DNA of 32,399 nucleotides, taken from positions 1 to 32,399 of the forward strand of contig JAILIC010000122.1 of NCBI GenBank assembly GCA_024695475.1. Direction: 5' to 3'. The position numbers were made by a program, and so were the translations under genes. The first letter of the stretch is position 1, and each line of letters opens with the position of its first letter. Source of the DNA: Treponema sp. GTDB taxonomy: Bacteria; Spirochaetota; Spirochaetia; Treponematales; Treponemataceae. This document shows positions 2,095-25,353 of the stretch, piece by piece. The notes under the pieces were generated by a model. It saw only the letters and a list, made by a program, of their open reading frames with translations. It did no database searches and was not told where the DNA came from.

Positions 2095-2123
2095 TTGACA
2101 AAACTGAAACTATAGTGCATCAT
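2095..2123 (+). promoter_or_regulatory. Predicted promoter of the leu leader/leuA transcript
   Basis: A perfect -35 TTGACA (2095-2100) is followed after 17 bases by CATCAT (2118-2123), which matches the -10 consensus at four of six positions including the key A and final T. The standard distance puts the transcription start at about 2130, exactly the A of the leader-peptide ATG. A competing TATAGT at 2111-2116 has no suitably spaced -35. Confidence 0.5.
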
Positions 2124-2129
2124 TACAGT

Positions 2130-2183
2130 ATGAGTTATACAACACTACTACTACGCAAACGTCTCTTTTTGTGCCGAAGTTGA
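2130..2183 (+). CDS. leuL: Leucine leader peptide (attenuator peptide)
   Basis: This short reading frame encodes MSYTTLLLRKRLFLCRS (17 residues). Five of the 17 are Leu, three of them consecutive CTA codons (2145-2153). It lies between a promoter-like sequence and a rho-independent terminator directly ahead of leuA, the classical layout of a leucine attenuator. When leucyl-tRNA is short, a ribosome should stall on the CTA run. The first part of the frame (2135-2147) can form 13 consecutive pairs, three of them wobble, with 2184-2196 just after the stop codon, as expected for a region 1:2 stem. There is no Shine-Dalgarno sequence; the predicted transcription start coincides with the ATG, so translation may be leaderless. 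Function is inferred from arrangement and composition. Confidence 0.72.
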   Translation: MSYTTLLLRKRLFLCRS

Positions 2184-2217
2184 TGGTGTTGTGTGAGCTA
2201 TTGAAATGTAGATTACA

Positions 2218-2250
2218 GACCTGTTACCTCGGTAGCAGGTCTTTTTTTTT
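2218..2250 (+). terminator. Rho-independent terminator/attenuator ahead of leuA
   Basis: GACCTGTTACC (2218-2228) and GGTAGCAGGTC (2231-2241) form a GC-rich stem with one G-U pair and a small loop, followed by nine T (2242-2250). It sits 66 bases upstream of the leuA ATG and after a Leu-rich leader peptide, so it is best read as the conditional terminator of an attenuator. A weak, interrupted antiterminator can be drawn between 2185-2194 and 2219-2228, with two mismatches. It would also stop read-through from the upstream chemoreceptor gene. Confidence 0.85.
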
Positions 2251-2315: not shown

Positions 2316-3989
2316 ATGATTAAAGGAAAGTACAGACCATTTGAGCCGGTTCCGATTACAAACAGAAAGTGGCCGGATAATGTTATTACCAAGGCACCAA
2401 CCTGGGTATCAGTTGATTTGCGGGACGGCAATCAAGCCCTCATCAATCCTATGGGCATTGATCAAAAGCTTGCTTTTTTTGATCTTTTGGTAAAACTTGG
2501 ATTTAAAGAAATTGAAGTAGGATTTCCAAGTGCATCAGATACCGAATATAATTTTTTACGTCGTCTTATCGATGAAAATCGTGTACCTGAAGATGTTACT
2601 CTTCAAGTACTGTGCCAAGCCCGAGAACACCTGGTAAAAAAGACTTTTGAGTCTTTGAAGGGCTTACCAAAGGCAATCTTTCATATTTATAACTCAACAT
2701 CGCCTGCACAACGCAAGTATACATTCAATATGTCAAAAGAACAAATAAAACAGCTTGCTGTTGATGGTGTTGCCTGTGTACAGGATTGTTTACCGATGGC
2801 ATCAGGTACTGATATACGCCTCGAGTATTCCCCGGAAAGTTTTTCTACTACTGAAATTGATTATTCTGTTGAAGTGTGTGAGGCTGTAAAAGAGCAATGG
2901 GCTAAGACCTGTAAAGATAAAATAATACTGAATCTTCCTACTACGGTCGAGTGCTCTACACCTAATCAATTTGCAGATCAGATTGAGTATTTTTGTACGC
3001 ATATCTCTAACCGTGAAAATGTCATTATCAGTTTGCATAATCATAATGACCGTGGCGAAGGTGTTGCTTCTTGTGAGCTTGGTTTACTTGCTGGAGCTGA
3101 TCGTGTTGAGGGAACCTTGTTTGGTAACGGTGAGCGTACCGGTAACCTTGATATTGTAACAGTAGCTTTGAACATGTATTCACAAGGTGTTGACCCAGAG
3201 CTTGATTTTTCTAATATTCCTGCTATTGCCGAAGAATATCAGAAATTGACTGATATGCCGATTCATCCACGTACACCATATGTCGGTGACTTAGTATATA
3301 CTGCCTTTAGCGGCTCTCATCAGGATGCTATCCGCAAAGGTATGGCCGCTCGTACTAAAATGGAAAACGATGCAGTCTGGGATGTTCCTTATCTGCCTAT
3401 TGATCCTCATGACATTGGTCGCCAATATGAGGGCATTATTCGTATTAACAGCCAAAGTGGTAAAGGTGGAGCTGCGTATATCCTGGAACAGGATTATGGT
3501 ATCAGTATGCCAAAGGCAATGCACTCTGCGCTTGGTATGGTTATTAAGCAGGCTGCTGATAACGCACAGCGTGAGTTGCAGTCAAAGGAAATTTACGATA
3601 TTTTTGCTGACCGCTGGCTTAATACAAAATCACCGCTTTCTATTATTGATTTGGCAGAAACTCATATCGAAGGTGAGCGAGGTAGTGATAAAGAGGAAGT
3701 TATGTGCCGGGCAACGGTCGAGTATAACCTTAAAAAGTATTCGATTGGTGCAAAGGGTAATGGTCCGCTTGATGCATTTGTCACCGCTTTGCAACAGACT
3801 CCGCTTCCTCGCTTTAACATCACTTCGTTCCATGAGCATAGTATAGGAACAGGTAGTGATACCAGTGCTATTGCGTATGTCCAGATTACTGTTGAAGATG
3901 GAAGACAGGTATGGGGTGTAGGCAAGTCAAGCAATGTTGGCCGTGCTGGTGTTGCTGCTGTTGTCAGTGCACTTAATTTTAAAGAGTAA
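2316..3989 (+). CDS. leuA: 2-isopropylmalate synthase (long, actinobacterial-type LeuA)
   Basis: The enzyme condenses 2-oxoisovalerate with acetyl-CoA to 2-isopropylmalate, the first committed step of leucine synthesis, in the cytoplasm. The 557-residue length and N-terminus (KYRPFEPVPITNRKWPD) fit the long LeuA group found in Corynebacterium and Mycobacterium. Visible motifs are DLRDGNQAL (from residue 34; metal and catalytic region), GFPSAS, and LHNHNDRGEG with metal-ligand histidines H241 and H243. The C-terminal part (about 430-557) matches the regulatory dimer domain that normally mediates leucine feedback inhibition. The start is supported by GGGGAG at 2303-2308. The gene is preceded by a leader peptide and terminator, so it is probably controlled both by attenuation and by feedback. 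No other leu gene is present, so leuBCD must lie elsewhere. Confidence 0.96.
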   Translation: MIKGKYRPFEPVPITNRKWPDNVITKAPTWVSVDLRDGNQALINPMGIDQKLAFFDLLVKLGFKEIEVGFPSASDTEYNFLRRLIDENRVPEDVTLQVLCQAREHLVKKTFESLKGLPKAIFHIYNSTSPAQRKYTFNMSKEQIKQLAVDGVACVQDCLPMASGTDIRLEYSPESFSTTEIDYSVEVCEAVKEQWAKTCKDKIILNLPTTVECSTPNQFADQIEYFCTHISNRENVIISLHNHNDRGEGVASCELGLLAGADRVEGTLFGNGERTGNLDIVTVALNMYSQGVDPELDFSNIPAIAEEYQKLTDMPIHPRTPYVGDLVYTAFSGSHQDAIRKGMAARTKMENDAVWDVPYLPIDPHDIGRQYEGIIRINSQSGKGGAAYILEQDYGISMPKAMHSALGMVIKQAADNAQRELQSKEIYDIFADRWLNTKSPLSIIDLAETHIEGERGSDKEEVMCRATVEYNLKKYSIGAKGNGPLDAFVTALQQTPLPRFNITSFHEHSIGTGSDTSAIAYVQITVEDGRQVWGVGKSSNVGRAGVAAVVSALNFKE

Positions 3990-5369: not shown

Positions 5370-7439
5370 ATGTCAAAAACAGCAAAAATAGTATTTGCTA
5401 CTGTCTTATCTGTCATTTTTCTTATTGCAGACATATTCATTGTTGATAAGATTGCACGAAATTCATTCGTTACTGCTGCCAGAGAACAAATGAACCTTCA
5501 TTCTCAAATACGTACATTAAAATTTGAGGCAAGCATGAATGAGCAGCTTACGCTTGTACGTCAAATGGTAAAAACCCCAAGCATCGTAAAGTTTCTTATT
5601 GATCCTGATGATGAAGAGATCCGCACTGCAGCTTTTGATGATTTTATCTCTTTTAAAAATTCCTTTTTAAGTAAGGTAATCTTCTGGACCAGTGATGCAA
5701 ATTTGGAATTCTGGAACGACATGAAATATGCATATACCGTAAATCCAAAAAGTCCCGATGACTACTGGTACAACATGACGCTCTATGAAACAGATGAATA
5801 CAACTTTAACATCAACTATAACGATGCATTAAAAACAACCATGCTTTGGGTTAATGCAGTCGTACGCAATTCCGGCAATAAACCGGTCGGTATGGCTGGT
5901 ACCGGTGTCCCGCTCCAAGACTTTATAGATACAATGTTCCTTGGATTACATGAGGGAACCACAATGTACTTGTTTAATGACAAGGACGAGATTACCGGAG
6001 CTCTTGATTCCTCCATACTTAAAGACAAACTGAGTATTTTTGATAAACTTCCTTATCTCAAAAATATCGAAGCAAAACCAGCGGAAAGCACTTTCATCGC
6101 AACAAAAGATGGTGCATATCTGCTTTCACCAATTTCCTTGGTAAAATGGCACATTGCATTGTATACTCCGTACTCAATGCAGGAACGTATAAAATACTCC
6201 ATACTTCCCTTGATCATTAGTATTATCATAATCTTTGTAATCGTAGGACTTATCATTGCCATTGTGGGAATAATAAACCGCATTGTCGTGTTAAAAGATG
6301 CTGTTGCAGAACTTTCAAGCGGTAATGCAGACTTAACCAAACGAGTTTCCATGAGAGGGCACTCTACCTTTAAAATCTTTGACGCACTTGTCAACGAACA
6401 AAACAAGTTCATCAAAAAATTTCAGGAAATTATCGGTACTGTAAAAGAGTCTGAACGTAAACTTACCTCTGTCGGAAATGACATGAGCATTTCTATGGAA
6501 AATACGTCCAGTTCTATTACGCAAATGATTGTTAATATTGACAGTGTTCACAATCAAATCAATCAACAGTCTCATAACGTACAAGATACCGCAGAGGCTG
6601 TAAGTAAAATAACTGACAATATAGAAAGCCTGCAAAAAATGATTAACGGACAGTCAGGTGGTGTAACAACAGCATCAACAGCAGTCGAAGAAATGGTTGC
6701 TAATATCAGAAGCGTCAACTCTACCGTTGATACCATGGCAAAATCATTTGCCTCACTTGAGGTAGAATCTCAAAAAGGCAAAGAAAAGCAAAAAGCTGTC
6801 AATGAAAAAATCATTCTTATTGAAGAAAAATCTAAAATGTTGCAAGAGGCAAATACTGCCATAGCAAACATCGCCAGTCAGACAAACCTGCTTGCTATGA
6901 ATGCTGCAATCGAAGCTGCTCACGCTGGCGAATCAGGAAAAGGTTTTGCCGTTGTTGCTGATGAAATTAGAAAGCTGTCAGAAACATCATCTTCTCAATC
7001 AAAGACAATTGGTGAACAGTTAAAGAGTATTCAGGACTCTATCCTCGATGTTGTAACAACTTCTCAGGAGTCAAGCAATTCGTTTAATGCGGTTTCTAAC
7101 GAAATTGCAACAACCAATCAGCTTGTACGCCAGATCAAGGCAGCTATGGAAGAACAAAACGAAGGCAGCAAACAAGTTATGACAACACTCCATACAATGA
7201 ACGCAAGTACTCAGGAGGTAACAGCGGCTGCACAGGAAATGACCAAGGACAACAAGATTATCCTCCAGAATATAAGCAGCCTCGAAGCCTCTACCCATAC
7301 AATGAAGTCAAGTATGGAGGAAATGTCCAATGGGGCAAAAAAGATAAACGCTGCAAGTACAGAGTTATCTGATGTTTCAAACAAAATGAAGGCATCTATA
7401 ACAGAAATCGAAGAACAGATGTCTCAGTTTACGGTATAA
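5370..7439 (+). CDS. Methyl-accepting chemotaxis protein (Cache-HAMP-MCP signal)
   Basis: This 689-residue chemoreceptor has a first membrane helix at about residues 7-27. A large periplasmic Cache-type sensor follows (about 35-270), rich in aromatic residues ([17 protein letters not shown]). The second membrane helix is about 278-303, followed by a HAMP-like segment and a coiled-coil signalling domain. The hairpin tip starts near residue 493 ([22 protein letters not shown]). Its sensor differs clearly from those of the other two receptors, so it should recognise a different ligand. The start is set by AGGAG about 8 bases upstream. Base composition is unusual: its plus strand is richer in A and C than the other plus-strand genes. 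It ends in SQFTV. Confidence 0.95.
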
Positions 7440-10592: not shown

Positions 10593-11423
10593 CTAGTCTA
10601 GCAGGTTTTTAAAGTAGGAAAGACTATTGGGTAAATCTTGAACGCCCTCAAATACGAGTAATGCCTGAGGTACTTCTCTACGTATTTCGGGAATCATTTT
10701 ATCCCACCCCATAATACCCTTTCCAAGCGGTACTTCTACGAGTTCATTTCCTTGATGAACAAAGTCCTTAATGTGGAAGATGACAATTTTATCAGCAAAT
10801 AACTCAAAGCATTGATGTAAAATATCATATCGTTGTTCATAATTTCCTATGTATAAATAATTGAAAATATCAACAGTGGTACGTACAAATCCGTTATCAA
10901 GGGCTTTTAGCAATCTATTCATTTGTTTTGGCGAATAGATACAATGGTGCCAGGCACCTTCGGGTGTGAGATAGCTGCCTGATTCTTTTGCGGTATCTGC
11001 TAGTGGGGAAAATACAGAGAGTACTTCGTTAAATCCCTCTTCTGTTTGATTTTTGGGATTGTAGGTCCAAGGTTCATCATTATAACTTCCTGTTTCGCTT
11101 GCGACATATTTTGCCCCGAATAATGATGCCTTTCGAAGATGATCGGCAAATTTTGCTTGACCAGCTGCGACTTTTGATTTGTCTGAGTGGACTGGATTAA
11201 AATAAGCTCCAAGAATCGGTATTTCGACGTGGTTATCATTAAAGCCCTTTCTAATATCCTGTATAACTTCCTGAGATAGTGTTTCAGGGGATCCGTTTTG
11301 TCCTTTTATAGCTTTTGCAATGGCAAGCTGTACTCCATAAAAACCAAGTGCATGTATTTTACTGCCTAAATCGGCAGCTGTCGTATTAGTACCAATATCA
11401 TGTGGTCTGATGCATAATTTCAT
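10593..11423 (-). CDS. Sugar-phosphate isomerase/epimerase-like TIM barrel protein
   Basis: The 276-residue product fits the xylose-isomerase-like TIM barrel family (AP endonuclease 2-type fold), whose members isomerise or epimerise sugars or act as related lyases. Candidate metal ligands appear in the expected strand order: the E in TPEGAWHH, the D in TVDIFNY, the H in VIFHIKDF and the E in LLVFEGVQ. No signal peptide is visible, so it is cytoplasmic. The start is supported by GGAGA at 11437-11433. It is divergent from the AraC-type regulator and near the glycan locus, which suggests it handles a monosaccharide released there, but the substrate is unknown. Its promoter appears to be TTTACC-N17-TATAAT. 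Confidence 0.8.
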   Translation of the reverse strand: MKLCIRPHDIGTNTTAADLGSKIHALGFYGVQLAIAKAIKGQNGSPETLSQEVIQDIRKGFNDNHVEIPILGAYFNPVHSDKSKVAAGQAKFADHLRKASLFGAKYVASETGSYNDEPWTYNPKNQTEEGFNEVLSVFSPLADTAKESGSYLTPEGAWHHCIYSPKQMNRLLKALDNGFVRTTVDIFNYLYIGNYEQRYDILHQCFELFADKIVIFHIKDFVHQGNELVEVPLGKGIMGWDKMIPEIRREVPQALLVFEGVQDLPNSLSYFKNLLD

Positions 11424-11452
11424 ATCGTATATTCTCCATCAAAATAAACTGT

Positions 11453-11462
11453 TTGCACTTTT
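11453..11462 (-). promoter_or_regulatory. Possible third AraC-regulator half-site (AAAAGTGCAA)
   Basis: Read on the minus strand this is AAAAGTGCAA, identical to the core of the direct repeat at 12444-12453 upstream of GH105. It lies between the divergent isomerase and regulator genes, about 17-26 bases after the predicted isomerase transcription start. A ten-base AT-rich match can arise by chance. Confidence 0.3.
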
Positions 11463-11485
11463 AGAGGTGCCAGTAAAACTAAGAT

Positions 11486-11514
11486 ATTATAGAATTACAT
11501 TTTATCTCGGTAAA
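11486..11514 (-). promoter_or_regulatory. Sigma-70 promoter of the isomerase-like gene
   Basis: On the minus strand TTTACC (11514-11509) is followed after 17 bases by a perfect TATAAT (11491-11486). Transcription should begin near 11479, leaving a leader of about 56 bases with a normal ribosome binding site. Confidence 0.6.
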
Positions 11515-11535
11515 GTACCATAAAAAACAAAAAAA

Positions 11536-11544
11536 TGATAAGAT
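11536..11544 (+). promoter_or_regulatory. Extended -10 of the AraC-family regulator gene
   Basis: TGATAAGAT (11536-11544) fits an extended -10 (TGn plus TAAGAT, four of six). The predicted start of transcription, 11551, is the A of the ATG, and no Shine-Dalgarno sequence is visible. The -35 is poor. Confidence 0.45.
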
Positions 11545-11550
11545 GAAGCT

Positions 11551-12432
11551 ATGATAGATTCTCCATCCTTGTTATATGAGCAGGCATATGCAATTCATAT
11601 TAATAAGCCATCCGATGATTTGTTTTATTATTTTGATTATGACGAGCGACATTATAGCATAAATATGGAGTTTCAACATTTCCATACGTTTTATGAAATT
11701 TTTATGCTGCTTGATACAGAGGCGTCTCATATTATTGACGGTACCTATTATCCCCTGCAAAAGTATGATATGGTTTTTTTACGGCCTGCTTTATTGCATA
11801 AGAGCGAGTATCCGCACGGTAAGCCACGAAAACGTTTGGTTATTGATTTTGCAGTCCCCGCAGCAAATCCTCTCTTAAAACATTCAATGGAACGCATATT
11901 TGGATTGTTTTCTGCACCGACACCAATTTACCGTTTTTCTGCAGACAAGCAACAACTCTTGTTTGATATTCTTAATGATATTTTTAATCAGGGAAAGCGT
12001 CTTGACCCCGTTAGAGATTTTTCGATACATACCAAGTTTATGGAATTTTTATACACGGTGTATGAGCAGAGCCGCTTTAATATCTATGAACCGGGACGAT
12101 TGCCTGATACTCCTGCATTTCGTATGTATACTATTACTGCTTGGATTCACCGGCATTATGCACAGGAGATGACGCTTGAAACATTGGCTGACAGGTTTAA
12201 CATCAGTAGTTGTTATTTGTCACATCAATTTAGAAAAGTAACTGGCTTTTCTGTTATAAATTACATTCAGATGACCCGTATAAAGAATGTGCAACAGTTG
12301 CTGTTATACTCTGATAAAAAAATAACAACCATAGCTGAAGAATGTGGGTTTAGTAGTTTTTCTCAGTTTAATCGAACCTTTAATACCTTCTGTCATATGT
12401 CGCCATCAAAGTACCGAAGTAGTGCAAAATAA
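11551..12432 (+). CDS. AraC-family transcriptional regulator
   Basis: This 293-residue DNA-binding protein has an N-terminal cupin-like ligand domain (about residues 20-150; EFQHFHTFYEIFML, then GTYYPLQKYDMVFLRP). The C-terminal double helix-turn-helix covers about 190-293 (LETLADRFNISSCYLSHQFRK, then the signature IAEECGFSSFSQFNRTFN...SPSKYR). It stands immediately upstream of, and in the same direction as, the glycan-uptake operon and divergent from the isomerase gene, so it is probably the local activator responding to an intracellular sugar. The 85-base gap after it contains a pair of direct repeats that are good candidates for its binding sites. No ribosome binding site precedes the ATG; transcription may start at the ATG itself. 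Confidence 0.92.
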   Translation: MIDSPSLLYEQAYAIHINKPSDDLFYYFDYDERHYSINMEFQHFHTFYEIFMLLDTEASHIIDGTYYPLQKYDMVFLRPALLHKSEYPHGKPRKRLVIDFAVPAANPLLKHSMERIFGLFSAPTPIYRFSADKQQLLFDILNDIFNQGKRLDPVRDFSIHTKFMEFLYTVYEQSRFNIYEPGRLPDTPAFRMYTITAWIHRHYAQEMTLETLADRFNISSCYLSHQFRKVTGFSVINYIQMTRIKNVQQLLLYSDKKITTIAEECGFSSFSQFNRTFNTFCHMSPSKYRSSAK

Positions 12433-12440
12433 ATAAAAAA

Positions 12441-12491
12441 GCAAAAAGTGCAATGTTTTTTTTAAAAGTTGGCAAAAAATGCGTTGTTTTT
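12441..12491 (+). promoter_or_regulatory. Pair of 20-bp direct repeats, probable AraC-regulator operator
   Basis: GCAAAAAGTGCAATGTTTTT (12441-12460) and GCAAAAAATGCGTTGTTTTT (12472-12491) match at 17 of 20 positions and start 31 bp apart, about three helical turns, so both would face the same side of the DNA. The downstream copy covers the -35 region of the GH105 promoter, the placement used by AraC-type activators. A partial inverted copy (TTTTTTGC, 12495-12502) lies just beyond. Confidence 0.6.
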
Positions 12492-12511
12492 ATGTTTTTT
12501 GCATTTATGAT
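12484..12511 (+). promoter_or_regulatory. Predicted promoter of the glycan operon
   Basis: TTGTTT (12484-12489) is a weak -35, and TATGAT (12506-12511) is a five-of-six -10, with 16-base spacing. The expected start is 12518, the A of the GH105 ATG. A weak -35 overlapped by a regulator site is typical of activator-dependent promoters. Confidence 0.5.
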
Positions 12512-12517
12512 TATACT

Positions 12518-13621
12518 ATGCAGAAAAACGAAAATGATGTAATTCAACATAAATTTTCTTTATTGGCAGAAAGTTTTCAAAAGGTACTGTATGAAGATGA
12601 TGTAACCTTTCTTGAAAATATGCGCAAGAAGAATGTTCCTGAAGCTGAAATAAAAAAATATCAGTTTTGGGAGTGGACACAGGGCGTAGGATTGTATGGA
12701 TTTTGGAAGTATTTTGAGTACACTCATAATACAACATATCTTGATATTCTTAAGGCCTATTATGATCGTCAGTTACAAATTGGCTTACCGGGTAAAAATG
12801 TAAATACTGTTGCTCCGTTGCTGCCACTTTCTTTTTTGGCAGAATATACTGGTAATGAGCAGTATATGGCAGTATGCAAAGAATGGGCTCAGTGGATTAT
12901 CGAATCTTTTCCTCGTACAAAAGAGGGTGGCTTTCAGCATATCACTTCTGACTGTATTAATGATCAGGAAATCTGGGATGATACTCTTTTTATGACTGTG
13001 CTGTTTCTTGCCAATATGTCACGAATCCTTAAAAACGAAACATATAAGCAAGAAGCAATCTATCAGTTTATGGTTCATGCAAAGTATCTTGCAGATAGAA
13101 CGACTGGATTATGGTATCACGGCTGGACATTCAAAGAAAATAATAATTTTGCAGGAGCTTTTTGGGGACGTGGTAATTGTTGGATTACCGCTGCAATTCC
13201 TGAGTTCTTGTCTATAGTTGATTGCCCAGAAGCAACAAGAATGTATCTTATGCAGTTGTTGCAACGACAGGTTGAGTCATTGGCTCGGTATCAGGATGAG
13301 GGGGGCATGTGGCATACACTTATTGATGATAAAACTTCATATGTAGAGACGTCAGCCACCTGCGGTTTTGCCTATGGTATTGTCAAAGCTGCCGCAATGA
13401 AACTTATTGATCATTCGTATGTTTCTTGCGCACAAAAGGCTCTTGATGCTGTATTGGCAAATATTGATGAGTCAGGTGTTGTAAGTCAGGTTTCTTATGG
13501 AACTCCTATGGGACGACTTACAAAAGATTTTTATAAAGAAATTCCTATCAAAGCCATGCCTTATGGACAGGCTTTAGCAATGTTATTTTTACTCGAAGTA
13601 ATTAAAGGAGGTCTTGTATGA
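12518..13621 (+). CDS. GH105-type unsaturated uronyl hydrolase (YteR/RhiN-like)
   Basis: GH105 enzymes remove the 4,5-unsaturated uronic acid left at the non-reducing end of oligosaccharides by polysaccharide lyases; known members act on rhamnogalacturonan and other acidic oligosaccharides. This 367-residue protein has the (alpha/alpha)6-barrel motifs of the family: WDDTLFMTVLFLA (W153-D154-D155, containing the likely catalytic Asp), WYHGW (199-203) and FWGRGNCW (about 216-223). No signal peptide is seen, so it works in the cytoplasm on imported substrate. I prefer the ATG at 12518: an in-frame ATG at 12479 would lie inside the operator and promoter, adding 13 unlikely residues. It is the first gene of the operon and overlaps the next gene by four bases (ATGA). 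Confidence 0.88.
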   Translation: MQKNENDVIQHKFSLLAESFQKVLYEDDVTFLENMRKKNVPEAEIKKYQFWEWTQGVGLYGFWKYFEYTHNTTYLDILKAYYDRQLQIGLPGKNVNTVAPLLPLSFLAEYTGNEQYMAVCKEWAQWIIESFPRTKEGGFQHITSDCINDQEIWDDTLFMTVLFLANMSRILKNETYKQEAIYQFMVHAKYLADRTTGLWYHGWTFKENNNFAGAFWGRGNCWITAAIPEFLSIVDCPEATRMYLMQLLQRQVESLARYQDEGGMWHTLIDDKTSYVETSATCGFAYGIVKAAAMKLIDHSYVSCAQKALDAVLANIDESGVVSQVSYGTPMGRLTKDFYKEIPIKAMPYGQALAMLFLLEVIKGGLV

Positions 13622-15522
13622 AAAGAGTGAGTATGAAGCAGGTTGTCGTTGCTTCTCTTATGTCTGTTCTGGTAGCTGGTTTTGCATTTGCAGCAGAAGC
13701 TCCAGAACTAGCCGCTTTAGTAAAGGCAGGAAAACTGCCTCCATTGGAAAAGCGTATTCCTGGTCCAAGTGATGTTTTTGTTTCAAAAGCAGATTCTGTC
13801 GGTACTTATGGAGATGCATTGCGCTTTACTTCGTTTGGTGGTAATTCACGTTGGACTGTCGGTAAGCTTACAGAAGAACCATTGTTCCGTTATAGACTTG
13901 ATGGAACTGTAGAACCAAACGTAGCAAAAGGATTTGACAGAAATAAAGATTCAACAGTTTATACCATTTACCTTCGTAAAGGTATGCGTTGGTCTGATGG
14001 TGAGCCTTTTACCGCTGATGACGTTGTATTCTACTACAATGACATGTGTGTTCCAAAGACTTTTGGTAAGTCTTTGTATGATTGTTTCTATTCAACAAAC
14101 CCAACTACTGGTAAGAAGACACCTTGTAAAGTTGAGAAGGTTGATGATTATACAGTAAAAGTAACATTTGCTGATACAAATACTACTTTCCTTGAAGCTT
14201 TGACAAATGACAGCAAGTGGTTCTTTGCTCCAAAACATTATTATAAAAAATTGCTTCCTGCTTACATTGGTGAAGAAGCTGCAAAAGCAAAAGCAAAGCA
14301 AATGGGCTATTCTGACGTTAAGGCAATGGGTAAACAGACAGGATATTACTACTGGACTGTTTTGGGTAGACCAACACTCCGTGCATGGGTTGCTAAAAAC
14401 GATATCGAAGACAATCTGTATGTCCTTGAACGTAATCCATATTATTGGAAGGTCGATACCAAGGGTAATCAGCTTCCATATATGAACTCATTAAAATGGG
14501 TAAAAGTATCAGATCAGGAACAGGTAAAACTTAAGGTTCTTGCTGGTGATGTTGATTTCTGTAAGATGCCACTTGCTGATTACACTGTTTTGAAGCAGGG
14601 TAGTAAGAAAGCTGGTATTGAAATGTACACATGGAGCCAGACAAGCTGGGCAAGCCGTCCAACTGTAGTTCAGTTAAACCAGACTATTAAGAATCCAAAA
14701 TATCGTGCTGTATTCCAGAATCCTGATTTTAGACAGGCTTTGTCAATTTGTGTTGACCGCAATGAAGTTTCAGAACTGGTAACTGATGGTTTTGGTGAGC
14801 CGGCTCAAGCTTCTGTTCCAGAAGGACTGATGGGATATGATCCTAACTGGACAAGAAAATGGACTGAATATAACGTAAAAAAGGCAAACCAGTTGCTTGA
14901 TAGTGTTGGTTTGAGCAAGAAAGATAAGAATGGATACCGTATGTTTGATGATGGTACTCCTTTTGTTCTTGATATGCAGTTGACTGATATCGAAGATATC
15001 AAGGAATCAGAAAAAACTGCTGAGTTGCTTACAAAGTACTATGGCGCAGTTGGTATTAAGACTACAACTAAGACTTATGGTCGTGATTTGATGACAGAAA
15101 TGTGTAATGCAAATAATCACACTGTATTAGTTGGTCCAATGAACTCAATTAATTCATTTAACCCAATTTTACGTCCTAACGGTATTATCCCTCTTGGAAT
15201 TTATTCTCCTTGGTCAGGTGCTTATGGTGAATACATAGCAACAAAGGGTGCTAGTGGCGTTAAACCTGAAGGTGATGTTGCAAAGCTTATTGATTTGTAC
15301 GGCAAGGCAAAATCTTCAACTACACAGCAGGAAATGGAAAAGAACCTAAAAGAGATTTTCAAGTTGCATGAAAAGAATATCTGGGAAATCGGTTATTGTG
15401 CTGTTTCTCCAGCTTTGATTGTTAAGAATACCAGATTGCAGAATATTGGTAAGACCTTGATTTTCTGTGAAGAATATCGTGACCTTGGTGTCGCACATAT
15501 AGAAAATGCTTATTTAAAATAA
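13618..15522 (+). CDS. ABC transporter solute-binding protein, family 5 (Opp/Dpp type)
   Basis: This is a 634-residue binding protein with a signal peptide (basic start, hydrophobic core, likely cleavage after AFA near residue 25). The family-5 fold is evident from EPNVAKGF, LRKGMRWSDGEPFTADDVVF and LERNPYYWKVDTKGNQLPY. Although the family is named for oligopeptides, members that sit beside glycosidases bind oligosaccharides, as shown for several Thermotoga proteins. The surrounding GH105 and GH38 genes point to an oligosaccharide ligand; that is inference. The start is well supported by AAAGGAGG (13604-13611). A terminator-like stem-loop follows the stop codon, which should raise its level relative to the permeases. 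Confidence 0.93.
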   Translation: MKRVSMKQVVVASLMSVLVAGFAFAAEAPELAALVKAGKLPPLEKRIPGPSDVFVSKADSVGTYGDALRFTSFGGNSRWTVGKLTEEPLFRYRLDGTVEPNVAKGFDRNKDSTVYTIYLRKGMRWSDGEPFTADDVVFYYNDMCVPKTFGKSLYDCFYSTNPTTGKKTPCKVEKVDDYTVKVTFADTNTTFLEALTNDSKWFFAPKHYYKKLLPAYIGEEAAKAKAKQMGYSDVKAMGKQTGYYYWTVLGRPTLRAWVAKNDIEDNLYVLERNPYYWKVDTKGNQLPYMNSLKWVKVSDQEQVKLKVLAGDVDFCKMPLADYTVLKQGSKKAGIEMYTWSQTSWASRPTVVQLNQTIKNPKYRAVFQNPDFRQALSICVDRNEVSELVTDGFGEPAQASVPEGLMGYDPNWTRKWTEYNVKKANQLLDSVGLSKKDKNGYRMFDDGTPFVLDMQLTDIEDIKESEKTAELLTKYYGAVGIKTTTKTYGRDLMTEMCNANNHTVLVGPMNSINSFNPILRPNGIIPLGIYSPWSGAYGEYIATKGASGVKPEGDVAKLIDLYGKAKSSTTQQEMEKNLKEIFKLHEKNIWEIGYCAVSPALIVKNTRLQNIGKTLIFCEEYRDLGVAHIENAYLK

Positions 15523-15552
15523 TAAACAACTAAACTAACCGTTTGTTGTTGT

Positions 15553-15594
15553 ACAGGAGAGTGCATTGTTAAGATGATGCTCTCCTGTATTTTT
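15553..15594 (+). terminator. Intercistronic terminator between binding-protein and permease genes
   Basis: ACAGGAGAG (15553-15561) pairs perfectly with CTCTCCTGT (15580-15588), with a few more pairs possible across a 2-base bulge, followed by A and five T (15590-15594). Partial termination here would give a short abundant mRNA for the binding protein and less of the permease message, a known pattern in ABC operons. Confidence 0.75.
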
Positions 15595-15657
15595 AGTGTT
15601 TGTGGAATTGTGAAATGCCGATTATCTGGACTGTCGGTGTGTTTTAAGGGAGGAATT

Positions 15658-16656
15658 ATGCTTAAATATATCGGGAAACGTTTACTTATTATTATTCCCA
15701 CTGTATTTATCATATCTCTGGCTTGTTTTTTTATTATTCAATTGCCACCCGGAGATTTTATCAGTAGTTATATTACTACAATGCAAGCTGAGGGTGAGCA
15801 AGTTACTCAGGAAGTAGTAGCACAGTTGCGTGCAGAGTACGGTCTGGATCATCCGTGGTATTATCAGTACTTTTTGTGGATGAAAGGCATTATTTTACAT
15901 GGTGATTGGGGATATTCATTTGAATATCAGCGTCCTGTTATTGCTATTATTAATGAACGCATGGCTATGACTATCACTATTTCATTAATAACCATGCTTT
16001 TTACTTACTTAGTTTCTATTCCTATTGGAATTTACAGCGCACTGCATCAATATTCTGTGGGCGATTATATATTCAGTGGTCTTGGATTTTTGGGTATGGC
16101 TACCCCTAATTTTTTGCTTGCCATAGTTTTGATGTATTGTTCATTCAAATTGACTGGTGATCCACTGATCGGATTGTTCTCTGATGAAATGCTTGAAGGT
16201 GGTGGATTTAAGATTTCATTTATTGCTGAGTTTATGAAGCGAATGGTTATACCGATTATTGTTATCGGTACTGCAGGAACCTGTAGCGTTATTCGTACTG
16301 TCAGAGCTCAGATGCTTGATGAAATGGTAAAGCAATATACACTTACAGCTCGTGCAAAAGGTGTTGCTGAAAAAGTTATTACGTATAAGTATTGTGTTCG
16401 TGCAGCATTAAATCCTGTTGTTTCTAGTCTTGCTACATCGTTATCAAGAATTTTTACAGGTTCAACTATTTCTGGTATCGTTATGAATTTACCAATACAA
16501 GGGCCTGTCTTGTATCAGGCATTGCGTAGTCAGGATATGTACCTTGCAGGTTCTATATTGTTTATCATGGCAGTTTTAGTTTGTGTTGGTACATTGATGT
16601 CTGATGTGTTACTTGCTTGGCTTGATCCACGCATTCGTTTTTCAGAGAGGAGCTAG
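15658..16656 (+). CDS. ABC transporter permease, DppB/OppB type
   Basis: This 332-residue inner-membrane protein has a DppB-like N-terminus (MLKYIGKRLLIIIPTVFIISL), a periplasmic loop, and five further membrane helices. The cytoplasmic coupling loop TARAKGVAEKVI (near residue 235) contacts the ATPases. The chosen start has GGGAGG just upstream. An in-frame ATG at 15574 would place 28 extra residues, CysMet-rich and unlike this family, inside the terminator stem, so it is rejected. It pairs with the next permease, four bases downstream, to form the channel. Confidence 0.93.
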   Translation: MLKYIGKRLLIIIPTVFIISLACFFIIQLPPGDFISSYITTMQAEGEQVTQEVVAQLRAEYGLDHPWYYQYFLWMKGIILHGDWGYSFEYQRPVIAIINERMAMTITISLITMLFTYLVSIPIGIYSALHQYSVGDYIFSGLGFLGMATPNFLLAIVLMYCSFKLTGDPLIGLFSDEMLEGGGFKISFIAEFMKRMVIPIIVIGTAGTCSVIRTVRAQMLDEMVKQYTLTARAKGVAEKVITYKYCVRAALNPVVSSLATSLSRIFTGSTISGIVMNLPIQGPVLYQALRSQDMYLAGSILFIMAVLVCVGTLMSDVLLAWLDPRIRFSERS

Positions 16657-16659
16657 GAT

Positions 16660-17772
16660 ATGCTGTTTTTTAAGAAAAAGGTTGTTTCAGAAGACGATTA
16701 CTACTTGGCTTCCCAGTGGAAACTGATGGGACGCAAGTTGGTAAAGCATAAGCTTGCTAGAGCAAGTATGATTGTATTGGGTATCTTTTATTTTGTTGCT
16801 GTGTTTGCAAATTTTATTGCTCCTCAGGGATTGACTGAGTACGATAGTGCCGCAAAAAATATAAAACCAACAATCGTACATTTATGGGATAGTGAAAAGC
16901 ACTTTCGAGGTCCCTTTGTCTATGGTTTTAGCAACAGAAGAAATCCAGAAACTTTTGAACGTGAGTTTGTTGAAGATAAAAGTAAAATCTATAAGCTTAC
17001 TTTTTTTGTAAAAGGTGAATCTTATAAGATTTTAGGGATTATACCATCTTCACGCCATTTATTTGGTGTAGAAGAGGGGGGACATGTATTCTTATTGGGT
17101 AGTGACTCAATGGGTCGTGATTTGTTCTCTCGTTTAATAATTGGTAGTCAGGTTTCATTGACTATACCACTTGTTGGTACCGCAATTAGTTTTATTTTAG
17201 GTATCTTGCTTGGTGGTATTTCAGGTTACTTTGGTGGATGGATTGATATGGTGATACAGCGTGTTATCGAAGTTATTACCTCTTTCCCATCGGTACCATT
17301 GTGGATGGCGTTGTCTGCTGCTATACCTCCTGATATCCCGATTGTACGTATGTATTTATACATTACTATCATCATGTCTTTTATTACATGGACAGGATTG
17401 GCACGTATTGTTCGCGGTAAGTTTATCTCGCTAAGAAAAGAAGATTATGTTATGGCTGCCCGCTTAGCAGGTGTCAGTGATTTTAAGATAATCATCAAAC
17501 ACTTGGTTCCAGGTTTTATTGGGTATCTTATTGTTAATTTGACCTTGGAAATTCCAAGCATGATTATTGGTGAAACTTCCATGAGCTTTTTAGGATTAGG
17601 TATGCGTTCTCCTGCTACTAGTTGGGGTGTACTCTTACAGGAAGCTCAAGATATATCAAATATTGCGTTGTATCCATGGAAGCTTATACCTCTGCTTGTT
17701 GTTATTGTCTCTGTTTTGGCATTCAATTTCCTTGGTGATGGTCTTCGTGATGCTGCGGATCCATACAAATAA
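16660..17772 (+). CDS. ABC transporter permease, DppC/OppC type
   Basis: This 370-residue protein is the second channel subunit. The N-terminal cytoplasmic stretch is followed by a first membrane helix (about 43-63), then a long periplasmic segment (about 65-145) larger than in classical DppC. The conserved core starts with LLGSDSMGRDLFSRLIIGSQVSL, and the coupling loop is AARLAGVSDFKIIIKH. Such enlarged loops occur in Opp-type transporters linked to carbohydrates. GAGG lies ahead of the ATG. It is followed 18 bases later by the first ATPase gene. Confidence 0.92.
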   Translation: MLFFKKKVVSEDDYYLASQWKLMGRKLVKHKLARASMIVLGIFYFVAVFANFIAPQGLTEYDSAAKNIKPTIVHLWDSEKHFRGPFVYGFSNRRNPETFEREFVEDKSKIYKLTFFVKGESYKILGIIPSSRHLFGVEEGGHVFLLGSDSMGRDLFSRLIIGSQVSLTIPLVGTAISFILGILLGGISGYFGGWIDMVIQRVIEVITSFPSVPLWMALSAAIPPDIPIVRMYLYITIIMSFITWTGLARIVRGKFISLRKEDYVMAARLAGVSDFKIIIKHLVPGFIGYLIVNLTLEIPSMIIGETSMSFLGLGMRSPATSWGVLLQEAQDISNIALYPWKLIPLLVVIVSVLAFNFLGDGLRDAADPYK

Positions 17773-17790
17773 TGCCCTCAGGAGTAAACT

Positions 17791-18804
17791 ATGACCGATA
17801 ACACATTGATTGAAATAAAAGATTTACATATAGATATAAAAACAGATGAGGGAACACTTACTGCAGTACGCGGTGTTAATCTCGATATAAAAAAGGGTGA
17901 GACTCTTGGACTGGTTGGAGAATCAGGTTGTGGTAAGAGTTTGACCAGTAAGGCGATTCTGGGAATCAATAATAAGAATTGTACAGCCAGTGGTTCCATT
18001 ATGTTTAGACCTTCTGACAGCTCAATGATGGCCGTTGATTTGCTTAAGTTAAAACGTGGTGGTAAAGAAATTCGTGCTATCCGTGGAAAACATATTTCTA
18101 TGATTTTTCAGGAACCTATGGCAGCATTTTCACCAATGTATACGATAGGTAATCAAATTAACGAATGTACCAGATTGCATATTACAAAAGATAAGGAAGA
18201 GTCCAAGGCTATTACCATCGAAATGATGAAAAAGGTAGGTATTGCAAATGCAGAAAAACGCTATGATCAGTACCCCCATGAATTCTCTGGTGGTATGCTT
18301 CAGCGTTCTTTGATTGCTATGGCTCTTGTTTGTAAACCTGATTTGTTAATTGCTGATGAACCGACAACAGCTCTTGATGTTACTATCCAAGCTCAAATCC
18401 TTGAGTTGATGAAGGAACTGCAAAAAGAAATTGGTATGTCCATTTTGTACATCACCCATGATTTAGGTACTGTCGCTGCAATGTGCGACAGAGTTGCCGT
18501 TATGTATCTTGGTAAAGTTGTTGAAATGGCTAGTGTTGACGATATTTTCAAAAAACCGTCACACCCTTATACACAAGGTCTTATTGGTTCTGTACATAAA
18601 CTTGGTGGTAATAAAACAGAACGTTTGTTCTCTATCCCAGGTACAGTTCCACTTGCACTTAATTTGCCAAAAGGATGTAGTTTCTACGATCGTTGTTCAA
18701 AACATATTGAGGGTGTATGTAATGCATGTGATCCAGCGTTGTCCGTAATTGAAGGAACACACAGCGTAAGTTGCTGTTTGTTCAATGGAGGAAACAATGA
18801 GTGA
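17791..18804 (+). CDS. ABC transporter ATPase, DppD/OppD type
   Basis: This 337-residue nucleotide-binding subunit has Walker [14 protein letters not shown] (about residues 47-59), Q-loop [10 protein letters not shown], signature [15 protein letters not shown], Walker [13 protein letters not shown] and switch His in YITHDLG. The C-terminus carries the Opp-specific extension with a Cys pattern ([19 protein letters not shown]) that in relatives can hold an iron-sulfur cluster. It forms a heterodimer with the next gene product. AGGAG precedes the start. It overlaps the next gene by eight bases. Confidence 0.95.
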
Positions 18805-19807
18805 GCCTATTTTAGAGGTTAAAAATATATATAAGCAGTTTACTTCCAAAGGGGTATGCGTAAAAGCTGTAACTGATGTTAGTTTTACGGTGAATGAAGG
18901 TGAAACCGTAGGTATTGTTGGTGAGTCTGGATGTGGTAAGACAACTCTGGGACGCTGTATTATCCGTGCAATCGAAGCTACAAAGGGTTCGGTTATGTAT
19001 CGGGCTGCAGATGGAAAAACCTATGATTTCTTACAGATTGATAAGAACCAAATGAAAGTACTGCGTAAAGAGTTGCAGATGATATTCCAAGACCCATACG
19101 CTTCTCTTGATCCTCGTATGACCGTCTATGATATTATCTCAGAACCTTTGAAAGCTAATTTCAAATTATCAAAAGAGGAATTATCTCAGAAGGTAATGGA
19201 TATTGCAGCTAAGGTTGGATTAAATACCACTTATCTGAAACGCTATCCTCATGCTTTTTCTGGAGGTCAGAGACAACGTATCGGTATTGCACGTGCATTG
19301 GTTTTGATGCCTCGGGTTATTGTCTGTGATGAGGCTGTATCTGCACTTGACGTTTCAATTAGAGCTCAGATTATCAATTTGTTAAAGGATCTTCAAAAAG
19401 AGTTTCATTTAACGTATCTTTTTATAAGTCATGATTTGTCAGTTGTTGAGCATATTTCTGATAAAGTAGGTGTTATGTATCTCGGTCGAATGGTTGAGTA
19501 TGCATCTTCACGAGATGTTTTTGCACATCCGCTCCATCCTTACACAGAAGCTCTTTTGTCAGCTGTTCCTGTAGCGGATCCTGACTATAAGATGGATCGT
19601 ATTCCTTTGGAAGGTGAAATTCCTAATCCTGCAAATCCTCCTGCTGGCTGTTATTTCCATGAGCGATGCCATTATTGTACAGAGAAATGCAAGAAGGAAT
19701 TTCCTCCATTTGTAGATGTTGGTAATGGCCATTTTGTTGCTTGCCATCGATATGCCGAATTACATTTGCGTGGTTTTGCAAATATTATGGAAAAGGAATC
19801 ACAATGA
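18797..19807 (+). CDS. ABC transporter ATPase, DppF/OppF type
   Basis: This 336-residue partner ATPase has Walker A GESGCGKTTLGRC, Q-loop MIFQDPYASLDPRMTV, signature FSGGQRQRIGIARAL, Walker B VIVCDEAVSALD and the switch His in ISHDLS. A C-terminal Cys/His cluster is also present (GCYFHERCHYCTEKC). I choose the ATG at 18797 because GGAGG lies at 18787-18791, directly over an in-frame ATG at 18785 that would otherwise add four residues. Its stop overlaps the next start (ATGA). Confidence 0.95.
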   Translation: MSEPILEVKNIYKQFTSKGVCVKAVTDVSFTVNEGETVGIVGESGCGKTTLGRCIIRAIEATKGSVMYRAADGKTYDFLQIDKNQMKVLRKELQMIFQDPYASLDPRMTVYDIISEPLKANFKLSKEELSQKVMDIAAKVGLNTTYLKRYPHAFSGGQRQRIGIARALVLMPRVIVCDEAVSALDVSIRAQIINLLKDLQKEFHLTYLFISHDLSVVEHISDKVGVMYLGRMVEYASSRDVFAHPLHPYTEALLSAVPVADPDYKMDRIPLEGEIPNPANPPAGCYFHERCHYCTEKCKKEFPPFVDVGNGHFVACHRYAELHLRGFANIMEKESQ

Positions 19808-20331
19808 GTAAAAAATTAATTGTTTTTTTTGACAGTGGAGATACTATCGTTGATGAATCAACAGAAATCCGTGATGATCGGGGAATAGTTGTTAAGGCTG
19901 ATCTGCATGCAGATGGAAAAGCCTTGTTGCAACGCCTTGTTCATGATGGGTATACATTGGCGCTTGTTGCTGACGGTGAGGTTGAGTCATTTAAGAATGT
20001 ATACGAACAACATGGACTCTCTGATGTGTTTACAACCCGTGCCATTTCTGAAGCATTAGGGGATCGTAAACCTGCTGCGATTATGTTTCAGACTGCTATG
20101 GATGCTTTGCATTTAACAGATGCAGATAAAAAACGTGTAGTCATGATAGGAAACAACCTTATCCGAGATGTTGTCGGTGCCAATCGATATGGAATTACTT
20201 CTATATTATATGATTGGTCTCCTCGTTATGATATGACTCCTAAGAATGCAGAAGAAACACCTGATTATCGGGTATCTACATCAGAAGAGCTATATGCCTT
20301 GTTGGAAAAACTCAATGGAGACTTGGATTAA
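19804..20331 (+). CDS. HAD-superfamily-like protein with altered catalytic motifs
   Basis: The 175-residue protein has the order of HAD phosphatase motifs: FFDSGDTIV near residue 8 (first motif), LALVADGE (second), the Lys in DRKPAAIMF (third) and MIGNNLIRDVVGA (fourth). Compared with the usual DxDxT and GDxxxD, the second Asp of motif I is Gly, the motif II Thr/Ser position appears to be Ala and the motif IV GD is GN. It could be a phosphatase with reduced activity, a phosphate-sugar binder or a regulator. No cap domain of size is visible. It is translationally coupled to the ATPase gene (ATGA), so it probably acts on a product of this locus. AAGGAA precedes its start. Confidence 0.8.
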   Translation: MSKKLIVFFDSGDTIVDESTEIRDDRGIVVKADLHADGKALLQRLVHDGYTLALVADGEVESFKNVYEQHGLSDVFTTRAISEALGDRKPAAIMFQTAMDALHLTDADKKRVVMIGNNLIRDVVGANRYGITSILYDWSPRYDMTPKNAEETPDYRVSTSEELYALLEKLNGDLD

Positions 20332-21001
20332 ATATGCACCTATACTGCTTTTTGACGAAAAAGAACCTTTCGCTATAAAGCAGGTAGGATGTACTCTATT
20401 TCATTCAGTTTCGTCTAGTCCTTCTTTTCCCGGGTCTCCATCGAGACGCAGGCTGATTGATCCAGCTTCAAAGGGTGCTGAGTTTGTTGTCGAATATGCA
20501 TATTCGTATGATTATGATATTCAGCATCTGTATGAACTGGAACATGTATGGATATATGTTGCTTCTGATAAAACGGTATGTGGGTGCGAAGCAAGTTTTC
20601 ATGGTAAATATTTAAATCAGATGATACCTGCTTTTCCTATTTTACCATCAGGAAATATGTCTGATACTCATGTGCGATTATATGTACAACCAGGAAAACA
20701 TGCGTTTTTACCACACCCTGACCTGTTTGCCTTATACCCAAATGCAGATAGTTGTTGCTTTGAGGAGGCAGGAAATGCTGGACTTGATACTCCTGAGATG
20801 TTTGAAAAGGTAGTTCCTGTCTTATCTGATACACAGCAATATATGGTTAAAACATATATCAAGCAAAAGTATGCATTTAAACCATCCTGGCATTTTAGAG
20901 AAATACCAATTCCTGAGGAGTTATATACCTCTTGGGTAGCAGTGGAAAAAGAGATACCTGCCAGAATTATTTCTGAGTTAAAAAAAATAGGAGCATTTTG
21001 A
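20315..21001 (+). CDS. Protein of unknown function, operon member
   Basis: I do not firmly recognise this 229-residue protein. It has no signal peptide or membrane helix. Segments that look conserved are ELEHVWIYV, CEASFHGKY and YVQPGKHAFLPHPDLF. The combination of a WxYV strand, an S-HG motif and a G-HAxxPHP motif faintly recalls NPP1/Vps62-like beta-sandwich proteins, which is only a guess. The likely start is 20315 (METWIKYAPILLF), overlapping the HAD gene by 17 bases; an earlier in-frame ATG at 20246 would lie deeper inside that gene. The next ATG overlaps its TGA stop. The tight coupling on both sides says it belongs to the glycan pathway. Confidence 0.7.
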   Translation: METWIKYAPILLFDEKEPFAIKQVGCTLFHSVSSSPSFPGSPSRRRLIDPASKGAEFVVEYAYSYDYDIQHLYELEHVWIYVASDKTVCGCEASFHGKYLNQMIPAFPILPSGNMSDTHVRLYVQPGKHAFLPHPDLFALYPNADSCCFEEAGNAGLDTPEMFEKVVPVLSDTQQYMVKTYIKQKYAFKPSWHFREIPIPEELYTSWVAVEKEIPARIISELKKIGAF

Positions 21002-22251
21002 TGACTTCATTACAAAGTAAAAGCACATTTCGCTTTCAGAGCATATATGTTTATATCGTACTAATGTTACTAATGATTGTCCTTGGGGCAAGTGACAGTA
21101 TGAGAGGTGTTTTTGGGCAAGTATTTGTTGACCATTTTGAAATTGGAACGGTTGGTTTTGCCCAAATTGTTACCGTGAGTTATATTGGTAACTTACTGTT
21201 TATGCTTTTTGGAAGTCGTCTTGCAGATGTATATGGCATTAAAAACGTATTCTGTACACTTCTTATTCTATTGCTTGTGGCTTTTATGCTTTATTTGGTA
21301 ACTGATAGTTACCTCGTTCTTCTTATAGGAATGTTTATTGCAATGGGAACTTCTACATTGATGAATACCTTAATCAATGTAATGACACCGCTGTTATTTG
21401 TTTCTGCTCCAGCACTCATTGTAAATACGTTATATTTTGTTCAGGGAATCGGTACCAGTGGAAATCAGTATATTTCTGGACGGCATGCTTCATCTTTTTT
21501 GGAATGGAAGTATGCTTGTCTTGTTTTGTTTGTTCTGGGTGTTATAGCTTTTATTTTATTCTGTTTTTTACAGATTCCTAAAACTGACACTAATGATGAT
21601 GAAAGTAAGATTAGATCTTCTTTTGAATCAGAAAATACTGGTTATGGACTAGTTATTCGTAATCCGTGGTTTTTTGTTTTAGTATTATTGTTTGGATTTT
21701 ATTTTGTGGCAGAACATAGCATTATGAATTGGTTGGTATTGTTTTGTTCCAGTCAGTATCAGTATACAACAGAAAAATCATCATTTTACTTGTCACTCTT
21801 TTTTGGTGGCATAACAATAGGCCGTCTCATATTTGCTCCGATTGTACATAAAATAGGTATAGCAAAAAGTTTGATTTTATTTACAACTGTGGGAGCATGT
21901 TTATATACATTTGGCATTTTAGGTGCTGATTTTCATGGATGCTGGTTATTTCCAAATAGTCTGCTGGATACTTATTTATTGATTCTTGGTTGTTCTGGGC
22001 TTGCGTTATCAATTGTATATCCGACAATGGTTATGTATATTTCTGGCTTTTATAATAACTCTATACTTTCTACCGCTACAGGAACGATTATTAGTAGTGC
22101 AACTGTTTTTGATATTGCTTTTAATGCCTTGTTTGGACCAGTCGTATCTGAAGTCGGTTTTACAGGTCCGATGTTAGTCTTACCTGTATGTATGGTGTTG
22201 TTTTTAGGTATGTTGTTGTACAGTAGGAGGGGATATCATGGAAATAGGTAG
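21001..22251 (+). CDS. Major facilitator superfamily transporter
   Basis: This 416-residue integral membrane protein has about twelve hydrophobic helices, with the central cytoplasmic loop near residues 195-215. The loop between helices 2 and 3 reads GSRLADVYGIKNV, the usual MFS signature region. The general look is that of sugar/proton symporters, but I cannot name the substrate. The start is the ATG at 21001 with AGGAG at 20988-20992; a TTG one codon earlier is less likely. It overlaps the previous stop by one base and the next gene by 14 bases. In an operon that already has an ABC importer, it may import a second sugar or export a product. Confidence 0.9.
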   Translation: MTSLQSKSTFRFQSIYVYIVLMLLMIVLGASDSMRGVFGQVFVDHFEIGTVGFAQIVTVSYIGNLLFMLFGSRLADVYGIKNVFCTLLILLLVAFMLYLVTDSYLVLLIGMFIAMGTSTLMNTLINVMTPLLFVSAPALIVNTLYFVQGIGTSGNQYISGRHASSFLEWKYACLVLFVLGVIAFILFCFLQIPKTDTNDDESKIRSSFESENTGYGLVIRNPWFFVLVLLFGFYFVAEHSIMNWLVLFCSSQYQYTTEKSSFYLSLFFGGITIGRLIFAPIVHKIGIAKSLILFTTVGACLYTFGILGADFHGCWLFPNSLLDTYLLILGCSGLALSIVYPTMVMYISGFYNNSILSTATGTIISSATVFDIAFNALFGPVVSEVGFTGPMLVLPVCMVLFLGMLLYSRRGYHGNR

Positions 22252-25200: not shown

Positions 25201-25351
25201 AGTTTGTACTTCATTACCTGTTACTACGGTGAAGTGTATAGATATGATGGAAGAAAAAGAGCTTTGTGAATGTGATTTTAATACAGATACAAAATCGGTA
25301 TCACTGAGCTTTAGACCTTTTGAAATAAAAACTTTGAGATGGGAGAAATAA
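22238..25351 (+). CDS. Alpha-mannosidase, glycoside hydrolase family 38
   Basis: This 1037-residue retaining, zinc-dependent glycosidase removes alpha-linked mannose. The GH38 catalytic barrel starts near residue 247. Visible active-site elements are GQSHLDLAWEW with zinc ligands H253 and D255, WLPDTFGFSGALPQI with the likely nucleophile and zinc ligand D365, and NQFHDILAGTS with H575. The N-terminal beta-rich extension and the long C-terminal beta domains are typical of bacterial and vacuolar-type members. No signal peptide is present, so it acts on imported oligosaccharides in the cytoplasm. The start is supported by GGAGGGG just upstream, inside the MFS gene's end. With GH105 and the lyase-like gene it implies an acidic, mannose-containing substrate. 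Confidence 0.95.
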   Translation: MEIGRQWAERLKIWNDYFTRFFYIPVAEVSAEYATTMEHLNLDQVQKLPMSKVTHNMRWGKKWEYGWFHWSIKVSRAVAGKEIVCLPGCGGESLIYVNGHVCGTQDKKHDYIVLSSSAVAGDVYDLYAECYAGHGVRPENGGPYAPDEIPVPEPSSQQITTQAFSWGIWDEAVYQVAMDYRTLYSLLSVLPPTSLRYQKVAKALEDFTLIADFELEEQERTASILEADKKLKDALSCTNGSTAPVMSLIGQSHLDLAWEWPLEETKRKCARTYATQLALMDKYPDYLFLACEPYIFEVLRQYYPEVYGRVREKALQGQCIGDGAFWVESDANMPSGEALIRQLVRGRRWFKKYFNQDSRMAWLPDTFGFSGALPQIFAGCGVSYFSTQKLLRADPECDPFPYNNFIWKGIDGTEIVSHIYKKNNAVITPQAVWQRWHEDRIQQENIDGMLFPFGYGDGGGGPTRDMLETVKRIGDLEGIPRTKMEAPQVFLEKITKQLEETGTQAPCYTGELYLSWHRGSYTSQGHIKRLSRKTEVALHDADYADAIDTFLYGKQSKRRELLEQQWSTLLLNQFHDILAGTSIQRVNDEACSALQEACTATNELAQNTLYHLYSDGNDRPSDVSENEQYIVVNTLSHDRNELVVHPKTEKLVEVSVPAYGYTTLSSQVATESTDQTPGVYCTMINQNGETSLKIENAYLILVFDTYGRLSSVYDKSIHTELVRSPCNDFCMYKDVTPFYDAWELSPMYNQMPLTLSEPAQISVVTTNTRYVQVKICRVIHDSTIEQLVTVRADCRRVDFDTNIDWHEKHKFLKVLFPLHIQTDEAYCETQFGYVKRPTHTSRQYDKDRYEVCNHRYTALCDSAHGVAVLNDCKYGVSVHDNCIGLSLLKAAVIPDMRADAGIHKMLYSLYVFDTPFAESGVVNEASDCNVPLQLIAVPKAFSTKYADTRFFICDNDSIVIDSIKSADDDSGAIIMRLYEAYGGCAETSVCTSLPVTTVKCIDMMEEKELCECDFNTDTKSVSLSFRPFEIKTLRWEK

Positions 25352-25353
25352 GA

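Follow-up and report, generated by a model that had tools for sequence, protein, structure and literature searches.

The DNA in front of leuA in a Treponema contig raises the question of whether transcription into this gene is decided by a ribosome translating a short leader. In the stretch analysed (32,399 nucleotides, hereafter the window), leuA, encoding 2-isopropylmalate synthase (2316–3989; HMGL-like, E = 4e-70), has a Shine-Dalgarno sequence, ggggag, before its ATG and is preceded by a promoter-like site, a 17-codon leader frame and an intrinsic terminator, all on the forward strand. An earlier note, made from these letters alone, read the region as a classical leucine attenuator, a reading that comparison of 58 leuA leaders supports, and it is very likely that leuA of gut-type Treponema is under ribosome-mediated transcription attenuation. 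The mechanism itself is already known from classical amino-acid attenuators such as enteric leuL; as far as sequence can tell, what is new here is the phylum, the predicted leaderless anatomy and a short TTCTC element. Elsewhere in its 32 kb the window holds three genes whose sequences suggest methyl-accepting chemotaxis receptors (7–2070, 5370–7439 and 29465–31543) and, by reading only, a run of carbohydrate-use genes (10593–27012) that includes a TIM-barrel epimerase-like gene, an AraC-type regulator, a glycosyl hydrolase-like gene, an ABC transporter, an MFS gene and an alpha-mannosidase-like gene.

Conservation of the leader

Upstream DNA from about 80 loci, chosen through LeuA searches, gave 58 leuA leaders. 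Almost all belong to the genus of the window, and one (L079) comes from a different family of the order. In every one of the 58 collected leaders leuA is preceded by a Leu-rich short frame and a terminator and, when the leaders are aligned as the earlier note had proposed, conservation is seen in the CTA run, the stem between regions 1 and 2 (the 1:2 stem), the antiterminator and the terminator. The genes further upstream vary: 39 unlinked groups can be told apart among the 56 upstream regions, and a chemoreceptor gene occupies this place only in the window. Because the neighbours differ among relatives while the leader persists, the leader belongs to leuA. The covariance model R1 finds a single strong copy per genome, located at the leuA leader; secondary matches in G007 and G016 proved to be ordinary terminators at gene ends and were rejected.

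About a dozen congeners are without the leader, mostly those with more diverged LeuA. In L066, the region upstream of leuA in G020, there is no terminator; what is found instead resembles a decayed leader, with a TTGACT box and, running into the leuA Shine-Dalgarno sequence, a remnant-like frame (MLLATIYVRS). For ilvB, hisG and trpE, about 12 Treponema genomes apiece were surveyed, and the 1.5 kb scanned upstream, a reach that may miss operon heads, contained no comparable leader. Elsewhere in the phylum, several families have candidate leaders, in which a Leu-rich frame and a terminator come before leuA. Short frames with Leu runs were also seen before leuA outside the spirochaetes, in Limisphaera (L038, MNGWLNLLLLWGALRHRGAAVGF) and in Brackiella (L043, MPALLSLLSLLSLLAIGYQA).

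The predicted leader peptide and its promoter-like site

The leader frame (2130–2183) encodes MSYTTLLLRKRLFLCRS, whose 17 codons include five for Leu, three of them consecutive CTA codons (2145–2153), as the earlier note had described; leader peptides in Treponema are mostly 14–23 residues long. CTA is the rarest Leu codon in the genes of the window, where it makes up 3.4% of 822 Leu codons in coding sequences, as against 55% of 317 Leu codons in the leaders. The enteric leu leader likewise uses CUA, and replacing CUA by CUG lowered its sensitivity in Salmonella (reported in PMC1183508). Rarity is nevertheless unproven as the cause of the CTA bias, because the CTA codons pair within the 1:2 stem and this pairing may itself select for CTA.

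A promoter-like site of the sigma-70 type, TTGACA-N17-CATCAT (2095–2123), places the predicted transcription start at or next to 2130. Taken alone, the promoter match that the earlier note had pointed out is within chance expectation (shuffle mean 2.1), yet the same register recurs in relatives. The best −10 box ends 6–8 nt before the leader ATG in 46/58 leaders; with the limits widened to 5–9 nt the share is 79%, against 4.4% in shuffles. TTGA[CAT] starts 33–39 nt before the ATG in 50 of 57 leaders, most often at 35, and this register is shared by Leu leaders from further genera and families in the phylum (L160, L166, L177, L181, L196). A Shine-Dalgarno core is missing before 46 of the 58 leader ATGs and present before 56 of the 58 leuA ATGs. 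Since the −10 box ends so close to the leader AUG, the peptide is very probably leaderless, and its start codon appears to begin with the first base of the RNA, both predictions being drawn from sequence. Among spirochaetes, Leptospira commonly makes leaderless transcripts (PMC5243855), and near-leaderless leader peptides are known from Actinobacteria (PMC11857589).

The attenuator could stand with a peptide that is not leaderless, if transcription began further upstream and the ribosome entered through a Shine-Dalgarno sequence or at the in-frame ATG at 2083, from which a longer reading (MNKVLDKTETIVHHYSMSYTTLLL...) does exist. Consistent with this arrangement, four leaders (L020, L022, L024 and L082) directly follow an upstream gene and carry a purine-rich stretch ahead of the ATG. 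Against it stand the positions of the −35 and −10 boxes in most leaders and the contrast between leader and leuA start codons in their Shine-Dalgarno cores; nor is such short spacing a general property of attenuators, since in E. coli leuL 63 nt separate TTGACA from the ATG. An upstream start is thus unlikely, and the leaderless start is the reading followed below. The same four leaders are without a leaderless promoter, and the gene upstream of them ends in a sequence like VNVAEERKPRPPRE, possibly that of an RNA-binding protein.

Mutually exclusive helices

The window leader folds at −43.8 kcal/mol (z = −3.16), and all but one of 200 dinucleotide shuffles are less stable. Its minimum free energy fold contains the 13-pair stem that the earlier note had drawn between region 1 (2135–2147), which overlaps the Leu codons, and the 3′ arm in region 2 (2184–2196); this 1:2 stem would serve as the anti-antiterminator. 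The intrinsic terminator (2217–2250) is likewise present, as a 3:4 hairpin (2217–2242) followed by nine T (2242–2250), and re-reading of the window confirmed the coordinates given for the leader frame, the stem and the terminator. The alternative pairing required adjustment: 2185–2194 with 2219–2228, as first suggested, is only the edge of the antiterminator, and the best supported helix joins 2172–2190, a part of region 2 that includes the leader stop codon TGA (2181–2183), to region 3 (2218–2234), which is the 5′ arm of the terminator together with its loop.

The antiterminator was located by pairing the tail of each leader with its own terminator. Across the 58 leaders this pairing has a mean energy of −14.0 kcal/mol, compared with −11.2 when partners are swapped (none of 5000 permutations as low) and −9.5 with dinucleotide-shuffled tails, and in 32 similarity-thinned leaders none of 20000 swaps did as well. 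The window helix (−11.9) is of ordinary strength, as 23 of the 58 terminators pair better with the window tail. Loop and tail co-vary, with TTCGGC facing GCCGAA, CAGTTGCGG facing CCGTAACTG and CTTGCGG facing CTGCAAG in different leaders, and in an unsupervised scan of all column pairs of a 52-sequence alignment (A1) the antiterminator pair 67:148 ranks first. Cells in which both partners have changed number 28 in the antiterminator (8.8 expected) and 48 in the terminator (4.0 expected), each above all 500 shuffles, and the antiterminator also exceeds every shuffle in paired cells and in covariation score; the shuffles do not keep relatedness, so these results are supporting evidence and not probabilities. 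In the terminator, 97.4% of cells are paired in 52 relatives and both sides change in 10 of 11 pairs, and a control with slid partners favours antiterminator and terminator alike. Column covariation is weak in the 1:2 stem, where own partners beat swapped ones by energy (0/5000). The GGT of its 3′ arm also pairs with the ACC of the terminator, and the two helices are therefore mutually exclusive.

The leader thus has what is expected of a ribosome-mediated attenuator: tandem codons for the product amino acid, an intrinsic terminator between them and the gene, a covarying antiterminator that excludes it and a 1:2 stem over the control codons.

Proposed mechanism

The pairings and their conservation rest on comparison among the leaders; for ribosome occupancy and the leucine response we infer the following scheme. 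RNA polymerase would begin at the A of the leader AUG or at an adjacent base, and a ribosome would load on the leaderless 5′ end. With ample Leu-tRNA it would pass the CTA codons, reach the stop codon and mask 2172–2190, so that the antiterminator would be blocked and the hairpin at 2217–2242 would end transcription. When Leu-tRNA is short, the ribosome would stall on CTA and mask region 1, leaving 2172–2190 free to pair with 2218–2234, and transcription would continue into leuA. Without translation, region 2 would be hidden in the 1:2 stem and termination would be the default.

Folding models in which the ribosome footprint was assumed to extend 12 nt downstream of the A-site codon agree with this scheme. 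When the modelled ribosome is halted at the first Leu codon of the run, 57 of the 58 leaders form the antiterminator ahead of the synthesis of region 4; when it is placed at the stop codon, nine do. In the final folds of the window the terminator form (−24.8 kcal/mol) is more stable than the antiterminator form (−20.1 kcal/mol), and for this reason the switch must be kinetic, decided during transcription.

The TTCTC element

Among the 5-mers of the leader frames, TTCTC is over-represented more than any other: it is found in 49 of 57 against 10.2 expected. Most of the remaining leaders carry a close variant; that of the window, GTCTC, is read at 2161–2165 in the loop of the 1:2 stem. The element is spread over the three reading frames (15, 16 and 20 times) and, being frame-independent, acts as RNA or DNA rather than as peptide. 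It is mostly unpaired. Measured from the leader ATG, its TCTC core ends at +34 to +42 (mean 38.9, sd 1.9), and this distance is tighter than that to the Leu run or to the terminator. No consistent cis partner of the GAGAA type was found for it in the leaders, and the surrounding sequence shows no evident G-10 Y-1 G+1 pause consensus. One tentative possibility is a spirochaete-specific form of leaderless leucine attenuation with an extra nucleic-acid signal, in which TTCTC may delay RNA polymerase and thereby give a ribosome time to bind the bare 5′ AUG ahead of synthesis of the switch region.

A conserved TTCTC could also be a protein site, and a terminator with an alternative helix is compatible with a riboswitch, a T-box or a protein-binding leader in place of ribosome-mediated attenuation. 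Rfam scans brought no T-box, known riboswitch or other family over threshold, and such a leader would be at odds with the conserved combination of Leu codons, an antiterminator overlapping the stop codon and a terminator, which makes regulation of this kind very improbable. Two Rfam RNAs, TD-1 and TD-2, have sub-threshold matches near leuA in two relatives (L055:571–689 and L047:466–550). That the hairpin is the plain terminator of the upstream chemoreceptor gene (7–2070), with a short frame there by chance, is scarcely credible: it does lie about 150 bases past that gene, but the gene is upstream only in the window whereas leader and terminator persist over all 39 unlinked groups, and a chance frame leaves both the antiterminator coevolution and the CTA bias unexplained.

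Relation to known systems

The ribosome-mediated attenuator proposed here can be compared with enterobacterial leuL (Rfam RF00512, Leu_leader), which also precedes leuA and encodes a short Leu peptide in which rare CTA codons stand in tandem, together with competing hairpins and a U-tract terminator. The E. coli peptide, however, is 28 residues long and its ATG, preceded by GGAG, lies 63 nt after TTGACA, whereas the Treponema ATG lies about 35–36 nt after TTGAC without a Shine-Dalgarno sequence. The RF00512 model scores 14.5 bits on the window (E = 1.5), and among 20 other leaders one reaches 18 bits, both below the 50-bit gathering cut-off; homology to E. coli leuL, considered because E. coli has TTCTT at the same place, is not claimed, these scores being too low for it.

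The anatomy predicted here resembles that of the Corynebacterium ilvBNC attenuator (ilvL, ilvB-II motif), which has a peptide of 15–17 residues, an RNA that begins a single nucleotide away from the start codon and three competing hairpins (PMC11857589; PMC10272879), but it controls ilvB through mixed Val, Ile and Leu codons and belongs to Actinobacteria; this comparison is by description. The polycysteine short ORFs of mycobacteria, in the account cited (Canestrari et al., 2020, cited in PMC13236596), are leaderless, amino-acid-rich frames that act as attenuators, the amino acid there being cysteine. The actinobacterial LEU element has a run of Leu codons before leuA but forms a pseudoknot in which the Leu codons pair with the leuA Shine-Dalgarno sequence, with no terminator switch (PMC1262725).

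In 2010 leader-peptide systems were said to have been shown only in Proteobacteria and Actinobacteria, to which Firmicutes were then added (PMC2965389). The earlier note's remark that such attenuators are well known from the first two phyla holds with qualification, in that the leuA leaders of Actinobacteria are the LEU element and not classical attenuators, and that Firmicutes and a Leptospira ilvB candidate (PMC10272879) also count. The note's authoring model was aware of no case in Treponema, which agrees with the literature searched: the sole spirochaete candidate for uORF attenuation there is the Leptospira ilvB motif (PMC8632094; PMC10272879), which differs in preceding ilvB rather than leuA, in its Val-rich uORF and in having seven representatives. 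No spirochaete leuA case was found in that literature; a 2010 survey by Lopatovskaya and co-workers may contain some, and priority is therefore unclaimed.

Implications

The leaders described here would extend leucine attenuation to the Spirochaetes, where the ilvB candidate of Leptospira was the only earlier one in the literature searched. They also suggest leaderless translation as the sensing step, a use so far described mainly in Actinobacteria. With clear covariation among them, the fifty-odd natural variants offer ready material for testing how ribosomes that load on leaderless RNA keep pace with RNA polymerase, and what part TTCTC plays.
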